In this document: piece by piece, positions 14,343 through 16,479 of the stretch
How the letters are laid out: every line of letters starts with the position of its first letter
How positions within the stretch are numbered: the first letter of the stretch is position 1
Virus record (IMG/VR): IMGVR_UViG_3300026199_000003
Coordinates: 1-26,697 of that record
DNA: 26,697 nucleotides
Strand: one strand, 5' to 3'
DNA from: a virus
Notes under the pieces: model-generated
Databases searched by the model: none
Seen by the model: only the letters and a program-made list of their open reading frames with translations
Told to the model about the DNA's origin: nothing
Translations under genes and position numbers: made by a program

Positions 14343-14550
14343 AAGCCAACTTCCATAAAGTTTGTATGTAAATCCCAGCCAAAATAACATCGGTCAACAT
14401 CAAGATTTTTAAATTCTTACGCCAAAAAATATACAGCCACAGCAACTGACCCGGCAGACCAATCACGCAACCCCACCACACATAGCTGTTTGCCAATAGC
14501 CAGATATTTGTTATGGCAAAAATATTTGCCGTGACTTGTAGAGTTACCAA
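14329..14550 (-). CDS. Small integral membrane protein
   Basis: The 73-residue protein is hydrophobic for most of its length, with segments about 6-24 (VTANIFAITNIWLLANSYVW), 26-44 and 50-66. The middle reads WGCVIGLPGQLLWLYIFWR, a pattern shared with small phage membrane proteins that resemble a PnuC fragment. The start is TTG at 14550, with GGTGAT just upstream, inside the end of the oxygenase gene; no ATG or GTG occurs in the first half. It would sit in the inner membrane. Function is unknown. Confidence 0.7.
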   Translation of the reverse strand: MVTLQVTANIFAITNIWLLANSYVWWGCVIGLPGQLLWLYIFWRKNLKILMLTDVILAGIYIQTLWKLAYELK

Positions 14551-15152
14551 AACATCACCAAATCACCACCATCCCTGATGATATGACCCTGCAAAGTTAT
14601 CCGGTATTCATTCGGCATATATTTTTTGTACTTAGATATGCGGTGCATCGTCATGCCATCGTGCAGTACCATTTCACCCTCGTCATAGGGGACATAAACA
14701 TCTTTGCCATTTTCATCAAAGTCGGCACCACCGCCACCTGTCGGGAGCTTGATCGCATAGGTGAACGTGGTCGCATCTTCATCACCCAAACCTAGCGTCA
14801 CATGAGACTGGTCGGTGTGCCAGTTGCCAGAAATGGTTAGAAACTTCGGGTCAGACGGGAAAATATGGAATCCCGGCAAAGCCAAATTGTCTTTCAGCAT
14901 GATCGGTTCACACAAGACATGGGCAAGCCTCTTTGACACATGGGAATACATCGGCTGGAACTCTTCCATCAAAACAGGATTAAGCCGTTCCGCATCTTCA
15001 TAATATTTTGGTGACGGCCCATCAAGATAAGCTGGACTGCCAAGCGTGAAGAAAGGGAAGTCATAAGAACGGCTTTCCCACAGGTCACGCATCGCTATCA
15101 CCTGCTTGGCGATCTTGTCAATTGGCAATCCCATCCGCACACGATCAATCAT
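14544..15152 (-). CDS. 2-oxoglutarate/Fe(II)-dependent oxygenase-like protein
   Basis: The 202-residue protein carries the facial triad of this superfamily: WHTDQSH (H112, D114) and LHDGMTMHRI (distal His H170, or H164), with R184 in NEYRITLQGH placed to bind 2-oxoglutarate. The double-stranded beta-helix core spans about residues 90-190. These enzymes oxidise proteins, nucleic acids or small molecules using 2-oxoglutarate, O2 and iron. The substrate cannot be told. GGGGAG lies four bases before the ATG. It is the first gene left of attP, so it would be at one end of the prophage and head of the accessory operon. Confidence 0.75.
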   Translation of the reverse strand: MIDRVRMGLPIDKIAKQVIAMRDLWESRSYDFPFFTLGSPAYLDGPSPKYYEDAERLNPVLMEEFQPMYSHVSKRLAHVLCEPIMLKDNLALPGFHIFPSDPKFLTISGNWHTDQSHVTLGLGDEDATTFTYAIKLPTGGGGADFDENGKDVYVPYDEGEMVLHDGMTMHRISKYKKYMPNEYRITLQGHIIRDGGDLVMFW

Positions 15153-15180
15153 TCGGCTCCCCTATATAGTGATAAAAAAA

Positions 15181-15199
15181 CTTCCACGTTTCTTCCACG
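15181..15199. repeat. Arm-type repeat, copy 1 (attP arm)
   Basis: CTTCCACGTTTCTTCCACG occurs here and again, identical over 19 bases, at 15388-15406. Each copy is itself two CTTCCACG half-sites 11 bases apart. The two copies flank the tRNA-Glu fragment, as arm-binding sites of a tyrosine integrase flank its core. No gene lies in 15153-15364. Confidence 0.75.
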
Positions 15200-15251
15200 C
15201 AAAAAGCCACCATTCTCAAAAAGGAATGACAACCTTGATTGACTAAACTTA

Positions 15252-15279
15252 TTGTATTGTGGTATGTTACAGGTATAAT
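15252..15279 (+). promoter_or_regulatory. Possible promoter in front of the tRNA-Glu half
   Basis: A perfect TATAAT at 15274-15279 lies nine bases before the tRNA-like fragment, with a weak TTGTAT 16 bases upstream (15252). Transcription would start at about 15286-15288 and read straight into the fragment. A second pair, TTGACT (15239) with TATGTT (15263), is also possible. After integration it could drive the rebuilt tRNA-Glu gene. Confidence 0.4.
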
Positions 15280-15349
15280 TTCCAACATGGCCCCATCGTC
15301 TAGCGGTTAGGACGCTGGCCTCTCACGCCAATCACGCTTCTGTAACATA
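15263..15349. repeat. 10-bp inverted repeat flanking the attP core
   Basis: TATGTTACAG (15263-15272) and CTGTAACATA (15340-15349) are perfect inverted copies on either side of the tRNA-like fragment, 16 and 9 bases away. They may be binding sites for integrase, excisionase or a host factor. Confidence 0.55.
15289..15330 (+). other. attP: attP core: 5' half of a tRNA-Glu (CUC) gene
   Basis: The 42 bases from GGCCCCATCG match a tRNA-Glu gene from position 1 through the acceptor 5' strand, the D arm (GTCT-AGCGGTTA-GGAC), the anticodon stem (CTGGC) and the loop CTCTCAC to GCCA. The match then breaks; there is no TpsiC arm or acceptor 3' strand, so this is not a working tRNA gene. The integrase gene starts its 3' end 35 bases away, and arm-type repeats flank it. 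It marks the site where the phage recombines with a host tRNA-Glu gene. Confidence 0.85.
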
Positions 15350-15364
15350 TTGTCTTTAAACAGT

Positions 15365-16390
15365 TTATTCACTTTTTGATACCGCACCTTCCACGTTTCT
15401 TCCACGTTGTTCAAGTTTCTTAAATGCTTTCATGACAGAATTTTTGTAAGTTTGAGTGTATCTGCCCGTCACTCTGGACCCTTCGGCATGGGAGAGAATC
15501 TTGCCGATCCATTCATCGCCAAAACCTTCATCGCACAAAGCAGACCCGATGTGCCTTCTCAAGTATTTGGCCCCGTAGCCTTTCATTCCCGCATCGGTGA
15601 AAGCTCTTAGCACAGCGGTGGTCACAGCCTTTGGCTTGATATTCGGGAATAAGATCGCATCTGCATCCATAGGCCAAGGAACGGTATCAAGCTGAACCTT
15701 GAGAGCTTGCAGGATCGGCACAACAATTCGCTCCCCATTCTCATGATCAACTTTGCCCCTCGGCTTGTCGATCCATCCTTTCGAGATATGGCAAGGTTTG
15801 AGATTAACGGCATCAGATACATCCATTCCGGTTAATGCCATAATCCAGTAAATCGGCTTGTATTTATCGGCAAGGTAATCGGCAACCATATGGACCTGTG
15901 CCTCGGTCAACGGGGCTAAAATCTTCCGCTTGATCTTTTTATATGTGAGCTTTGGCCTTCCCCACTTCTTGTCGGCTACCCGCAATAAAGCGGTTAAAGC
16001 ATCAAACTCCTTGTCCAGCGTATCTTTCACGCCCTGCAATTCGCCATCTTTGGATAATCCATACCTGAACTCAATGTAAGACTCAAGCAGTTCCTTGGTA
16101 ATATCTCGCAAGGTGTACTCGCCAAAGAACGGGTAAACATGAACCCGCAAACTTAATTCCATACGCTTTGAAACTTCACGGTTGATCTTGAGTGATTTTA
16201 TCTTCCTTCTGGCAGAGCTTGGGTCAAGCCCTTGCTCAATATCGGCAATCACTTTGCCCAACTGGATTGAAGCCTTCCTGATTTCATGCTCATAAGCATT
16301 GAGTGGCACAACATGAATCCGCTTCCAATCCTTTTTGTCTCTGACATTGGAATACCATCTGCCATCAATCAACTTCATGTATGTAGGCAT
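15365..16390 (-). CDS. int: Tyrosine integrase with altered catalytic box I
   Basis: This site-specific recombinase inserts and excises the phage at attP. The longer frame from ATG 16462 gives 365 residues; ATG 16390 (341 residues, MPTYMKLIDGRWYSNV) has a much better ribosome site, AGGGGGG, about six bases upstream. Numbering from 16462, the core-binding domain is about 90-165. The catalytic domain has TGMDVSDAVNLK (211-222), K237, YLRRHIG (300-306), ILSHAEG and RYTQ with nucleophile Y335. The box I Arg of the usual TGxR is Asp214, and the His of HxLR is Lys299, both unusual. The 3' end of the gene contains the second arm-type repeat. Confidence 0.9.
   Translation of the reverse strand: MPTYMKLIDGRWYSNVRDKKDWKRIHVVPLNAYEHEIRKASIQLGKVIADIEQGLDPSSARRKIKSLKINREVSKRMELSLRVHVYPFFGEYTLRDITKELLESYIEFRYGLSKDGELQGVKDTLDKEFDALTALLRVADKKWGRPKLTYKKIKRKILAPLTEAQVHMVADYLADKYKPIYWIMALTGMDVSDAVNLKPCHISKGWIDKPRGKVDHENGERIVVPILQALKVQLDTVPWPMDADAILFPNIKPKAVTTAVLRAFTDAGMKGYGAKYLRRHIGSALCDEGFGDEWIGKILSHAEGSRVTGRYTQTYKNSVMKAFKKLEQRGRNVEGAVSKSE
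15388..15406. repeat. Arm-type repeat, copy 2, inside the integrase gene
   Basis: Identical to the 19-base copy at 15181-15199 in the same orientation. It lies in the last coding stretch of the integrase, encoding about residues 352-359 (RGRNVEG). Integrase bound here could also block its own transcript. Confidence 0.7.
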
Positions 16391-16479
16391 ACCATCCCCC
16401 CTGAATATCCGTTGATCTTTGGATAGGGAGCTTACCATGTTCTTTGTTATGGCTGAAGTCATATTGTAAATTTGTACAC

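Follow-up and report, generated by a model that had tools for sequence, protein, structure and literature searches.

The window, a viral contig of 26,697 nt, carries the genes of a phage. Pfam and PHROG searches identify a P22-like portal, a terminase large subunit, a major head protein and a DnaB-like primase/helicase, as well as a tyrosine integrase (Int). Close to the 3' end of the integrase gene (int) lies the 5' half of a tRNA-Glu gene, surrounded by repeats and promoter-like elements. The features of this region are the following:

15179-15199, plus strand: left arm of a direct repeat, a putative arm-type site of Int.
15210-15223, plus strand: motif CCATTCTCAAAAAG, common to other tRNA-Glu att regions; among 167 loci, only att regions match it.
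15239-15268, plus strand: alternative promoter-like pair TTGACT-18-TATGTT, with the best promoter score (shuffle p=0.01).
15263-15272, plus strand: left copy of an inverted repeat, TATGTTACAG; marginal.
15274-15279, plus strand: TATAAT, a -10-like hexamer read directly from the sequence, 9 nt before G1 of the tRNA; TATATT at the homologous position of viral contig L074.
15289-15329, plus strand: predicted attP core, the 5' half of tRNA-Glu(CUC) from G1 to the anticodon loop plus 3 bp; identical over 41 nt to intact tRNA-Glu genes of 13 genomes.
15315-15329, plus strand: predicted crossover region with anticodon stem CTGGC, 7-nt loop CTCTCAC and GCC; the sole part common to att sites with a 5' half (5'-type) and with a 3' half (3'-type).
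15340-15349, plus strand: right copy of the inverted repeat, CTGTAACATA; marginal.
15365-16462, minus strand: int, convergent with the tRNA half (Pfam PF00589, 2.5e-6; PHROG integrase, 9.8e-18).
15386-15406, plus strand: right arm of the direct repeat, overlapping the 3' end of int.

The half tRNA reads GGCCCCATCGTCTAGCGGTTAGGACGCTGGCCTCTCACGCC, with the anticodon loop at 15320-15326. No complete tRNA was found by ARAGORN in the whole window. An earlier note on this DNA, made from the sequence alone, had claimed that phage and host share the front of tRNA-Glu, from base 1 to just past the CTC loop, and had proposed looking for host tRNA-Glu(CUC) genes that match over about their first 42 bases. 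Both hold: the 41-mer is present in 13 of 84,980 species genomes, exclusively of Nitrospinota and Desulfobacterota, and each time it belongs to an intact tRNA-Glu(CTC) gene. Identity with the host tRNA is extended and exact, the anticodon arm included. With the best matches (L008, L013) the identity block of the window begins 5-6 nt upstream of G1; this extension could be due to chance, since other exact hosts stop sooner. Concerning the crossover, the 7-nt anticodon loop has been described as a 7-bp overlap (PMC8371274).

Arm-type repeats flank the core on both sides. TTCCACGTTTCTTCCACG occurs twice, at 15182 and 15389, as compared to 0.04 occurrences expected by chance, and the repeats reach 21 bp with one mismatch, which makes them stronger than the 19-bp direct repeats originally described. 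The 10-bp inverted repeat TATGTTACAG/CTGTAACATA had been placed correctly, but is only marginal against shuffles (11 bp, 95% limit 11). It is not kept in L074 either, and we rejected it as a key feature. The arm repeats of the window (TTCCACG) and of L074 (TCTAACCC) differ in sequence, while their spacing is alike (-110/+56 and -111/+57), which suggests co-evolution with the arm-binding domain of the integrase. CCATTCTCAAAAAG recurs at L030 (1404-1417), L031 (1414-1427), L067 (1634-1647) and L076 (7549-7562), even beside unrelated integrases, and perhaps represents a site for an accessory protein or something conserved around the tRNA-Glu target.

L074 is the closest viral relative of the window. 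It was the only contig retrieved by an integrase profile scan, and no integrase relative emerged when viral contigs were scanned with the single protein or phage records were searched by tblastn. Its integrase is 46% identical to that of the window; the one of the Nitrospinota genome G048 is 48% identical. L074 carries a 5' half in the same layout and with the same arm spacing, and the gene order beside attP is common to both contigs, with an Fe2OG-like gene to the left and int followed by a related small gene to the right. In the window the left gene (14544-15152) resembles by eye a 2-oxoglutarate/Fe(II) oxygenase; no Pfam or NCBIfam match was obtained for it. As a further peculiarity, an Asp at TGMD, about residue 214, replaces the catalytic Arg I in the clade formed by the integrases of the window, L074, G048, G022, G037, G039 and L078. 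In other tyrosine recombinases Arg I lies within TG-L/M-R. The Asp-type enzyme is presumably active, since the G022 element, which carries it, looks integrated.

A lone 5' half beside int is also what a 5'-type integration should leave at the host-upstream end. The window might thus be a chimera of prophage and host, and the half a host-side attL remnant and not the attP of the phage. However, the half is flanked on either side by phage genes and by repeat arms, its neighbours to the left and to the right are the same in L074, and the sequence upstream of the host target (tRNA-Gln and a gene ending in GPPIM) is absent from the window. The flanking phage genes therefore mark the site as one of the phage rather than as a junction with the host, and of all the alternatives weighed here we give the chimera the least credence.

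Using a degenerate pattern, we found the 5' half without the 3' half in four more viral contigs, L074, L002, L075 and L076. Each of these halves matches a known tRNA-Glu variant without a difference for 41-48 nt: L074 matches the L057/G036 variant, and L075 and L076 match L031, L059 and L078 (Nitrospinota genomes or a Nitrospinota-type prophage contig). Their identity blocks begin 0-1 nt from G1, and the blocks of all five 5'-type sites end 3-9 nt past the anticodon loop. Other viral hits of a general tRNA-Glu 5'-half scan were complete phage tRNA genes, plus one gene cut at a contig end, and were discarded. The 3' half only was found with 3'-half patterns in about 17 viral contigs, in one of which it begins inside the core at the contig end; the patterns differed in strictness, and the ratio of about 5:17 gives an order of magnitude. 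Blocks of the 3' type, as measured on L099-L107, extend from 3-6 nt ahead of the loop to the 3' end of the tRNA or slightly beyond it. Upstream of an integrase gene, L080 (IMGVR_UViG_3300037247_002096, 4-368) carries a degenerate array in which 36-nt units with the motifs GCGAGTCA and GAAAACCA are repeated in tandem.

Joining phage and host sequences in silico and scanning the junctions with ARAGORN gave a complete tRNA-Glu only at the host-downstream (phage-upstream) junction for all five 5'-type sites. With each of the 3'-type sites tested, it was the host-upstream junction alone that yielded one. Neither attP itself nor the opposite junction contained a complete tRNA. The tRNA scan of attL and attR suggested in the earlier note thus returns, for one in silico junction of the window, a tRNA rebuilt with the phage 5' half. 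The note had further held that its model fails if relatives share only the 3' part with the host tRNA. Most tRNA-Glu relatives, G048 included, are indeed of the 3' type, but L074, the closest viral one, is of the 5' type. A 5'-restoring attP is supported by the tyrosine integrase next to it, by the arm repeats, by exact host matches beginning at or within about six bases of G1, by four further 5'-only sites, by the mirror-image relatives with a 3' half and by the in silico junctions.

As an alternative to an attachment site, the half could be a phage decoy or a regulatory tRNA fragment transcribed from TATAAT. It does have a promoter-like element directly upstream and, like tRNA halves, stops within the anticodon arm. 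Such a function leaves unexplained why the half sits beside an integrase and between direct-repeat arms, why the same half recurs in four other phages with other flanks, and why mirror-image 3' halves adjoin related integrases at the same core; we consider it very improbable.

Nitrospinota are the likely host of the phage. They are major nitrite oxidisers of the sea. Integrase relatives are present in 21 of 77 Nitrospinota genomes (best 48% identical, E 2e-99). Desulfobacterota also have tRNA-Glu matches but were rejected as hosts, as not one of 243 genomes of the order of Desulfocapsa holds an integrase relative at E<=1e-15. The genomes surveyed comprise one per species, many of them fragmentary. 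Relatives of the portal protein at E<=1e-15 were not detected in the 77 Nitrospinota genomes, so no full prophage was seen. These genomes likewise yielded no integrated 5'-type prophage: the 5'-half matches that could be inspected are intact tRNAs, except two fragments in genome G065 (L086, L087). We rejected these as 5'-type lysogens, because they have chromosomal neighbours (RpoD and a sterol-desaturase-like gene) and differ in the first two bases. No integrase was recognised near them, and no intact CUC tRNA-Glu gene was seen in G065.

In Nitrospinota the target stands in a recurrent context, in which tRNA-Gln is followed by the GPPIM-ending gene of about 150-190 codons and then by tRNA-Glu. 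This arrangement is an integration hot spot for several integrase groups (L030, L031, L033, L039, L040, L042, L045, L070, L078), and G048 appears to carry two tandem elements. At most of the loci examined tRNA-Glu begins about 13-140 nt after the end of an ORF, with tRNA-Gln further upstream, and at most of them no clear sigma-70 promoter of its own was found. Desulfobacterota copies of tRNA-Glu have TTGACA-17-TA-rich hexamers. The host upstream arrangement is kept by 3'-type insertion and broken by 5'-type insertion.

This raises the question of how a rebuilt tRNA is expressed. TATAAT does lie nine bases upstream of the tRNA, as the earlier note had pointed out, and together with TTGTAT it is closer to the half than TTGACT-18-TATGTT. 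L074 has TTGTAT and TATATT at the same places, so that a TATA-like hexamer stands 8-9 nt before G1 in both contigs. Two promoter-like consensus matches were found in the window as compared to 0.6 expected; the p=0.01 comes from one of several tests, with a matrix modelled on E. coli promoters in general. Promoter scoring revealed no promoter-like element upstream of the half in L002, L075 and L076. The idea of a phage promoter for a host tRNA is therefore plausible for the window and L074 only.

The 5'-type attP may also be real and have no dedicated promoter. Readthrough from int or other phage genes would then express the tRNA; alternatively, rebuilding the CUC tRNA may not be essential, since tRNA-Glu(UUC) may read GAG codons. 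The three contigs without an element fit this explanation, and so do the half of L002, which begins 17 nt after the int stop and is co-directional like in archaeal pTN3, and a second, TTC-type tRNA-Glu match that a looser pattern detects in the genomes checked. It fits less well that no upstream gene reads toward the half in the window or in L074 and that these two have the promoter-like hexamers in common. Moreover, none of the five phages deviates from the tRNA anywhere in the 5' half, even though Int should need the core only, which suggests selection on tRNA function. We regard the lack of a dedicated promoter as a real possibility, short of probable, and prefer a phage promoter for the window and L074.

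Comparison of related integrases indicates how the 5' polarity may have arisen. In L099-L106 and most Nitrospinota elements the 3' half is on the int side. The half of L002 is on the int side too, but it is a 5' half and the core is reversed. The L002 and G047 integrases share 69% identity, and G047 is a 3'-type element, about 5.3 kb long, of which both ends can be seen. The window and L074 have the 5' half on the side away from int. At the int-proximal junction of G048 and G022, int is followed by the core and a 3' half, the core being reversed as compared to the window, and the G048 integrase is 57% identical to that of L074. The 3' half at the G048 junction belongs to the target; the element's own half is presumably a 3' half as well, since no 5' half is present. 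The integrases of L075 and L076 lie about 8-14 kb from the half, and the layout of both was left out of this comparison.

In the integrase tree the 5'-type sites fall into two clades, each of which also has its 3'-type relative (support values of 100/100 and 97/94 to 100/100), and the L002/G047 pair is placed far from the group of the window, L074 and G048. The tree forces at least three label changes, which could be one gain with losses. As 5' sites occur in two clades beside 3'-type relatives, it seems that the polarity flipped at least twice, starting from ordinary marine Nitrospinota relatives. Within each 5' clade the half stays on the same side of int and the anticodon-arm core is reversed. 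The 5' polarity probably goes back to such a reversal with respect to int, as beside related integrases this core is found in the opposite direction and together with the 3' half. In the simplest case, the near-symmetric anticodon arm would have been reversed in attP, and selection would then have favoured the other half of the tRNA.

We consider it very probable (roughly 0.87), judging from comparative sequence evidence, that 15179-15406 serves as attP of a temperate podovirus-like phage of Nitrospinota with a P22-type portal, that Int crosses over in the anticodon arm of tRNA-Glu(CUC) and that the phage restores the 5' half. The crossover site would most likely be the one tRNA-Glu(CUC) gene that the host possesses. 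Since the tRNA sequence in attP runs from base 1 to the anticodon stem-loop, the host-upstream end of the integrated phage, next to int, would be left with a non-functional 5' half, and at the far end the tRNA would be rebuilt from the phage 5' half and the host 3' half. The rebuilt tRNA-Glu would be severed from its usual upstream context and transcribed from phage DNA, probably via TATAAT/TTGTAT or TTGACT/TATGTT just upstream. We infer the crossover position, promoter activity and also integration itself, the latter since the 77 Nitrospinota genomes show no integrated 5'-type prophage. In more general terms, integrases acting at the near-symmetric anticodon arm may switch polarity repeatedly, and the switched phages may take over transcription of a host tRNA that was probably transcribed together with the genes upstream of it, so that the tRNA supply of the lysogen would depend on the phage; to us this is an even bet.

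tRNA genes are classic integration targets, and as a rule the 3' end comes from the element, and the host promoter stays untouched. Restoration of the 5' half is already known from archaea. The pTN3-like integrases of Thermococcales use an attP/attB identity of about 41 bp that covers the 5' half of a tRNA(Leu), and integration rebuilds the tRNA apart from the promoter that it had originally (Cossu et al. 2017, PMC5495485; PMC8371274). The attP of pTN3 is part of int itself, and integration splits this gene; according to a review, the int promoter then drives the tRNA (PMC8371274). The site of the window has the 5' half in attP in common with these systems. Unlike in archaeal pTN3, its attP is outside int (int ends at 15365, the half at 15329), int converges on attP and a separate promoter is proposed.

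Among bacteria, 5'-half restoration is seldom seen, as far as the passages of the review that cite Williams 2002 go (PMC8371274). By the same passages, integrases of the anticodon-loop class usually carry the 3' half and keep the host promoter, with very few exceptions. The window shares with this bacterial class the tyrosine integrase, the anticodon stem-loop core and the rebuilt tRNA; its half is the 5' and not the usual 3' half. Elements and phages at tRNA-Glu(CUC) of Nitrospinota (G022, G037, G039, G047, G048, L099-L107) have the same target and core, and integrases homologous to that of the window (G048 48%, G039 and G037 about 30-34% identical). Unlike the window they carry or restore the 3' half, and tRNA-Glu remains in the context that it has in the host. 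The common core of mycobacteriophages, too, usually spans the 3' half. In the tRNA-dependent lysogeny of mycobacteriophages (Fionnbharth etc.) a core of about 10 bp is used, the host tRNA is destroyed and the phage carries a complete tRNA gene (PMC10865867). As proposed for the window, integration there takes place in a tRNA gene and bears on the supply of the tRNA, whereas the window has a 41-nt core and, on a contig that is maybe incomplete, no complete tRNA of the same isotype.

The site of the window is thus a rare bacterial mirror image of the usual arrangement. The bacterial viral sites described here break the 3'-end rule at a single target, and their 3'-type relatives are so close that the switch can be seen; both the change of polarity and the possible control of a host tRNA by a prophage thereby become testable. 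At the same time, an exact genetic link ties uncultivated phages to Nitrospinota.
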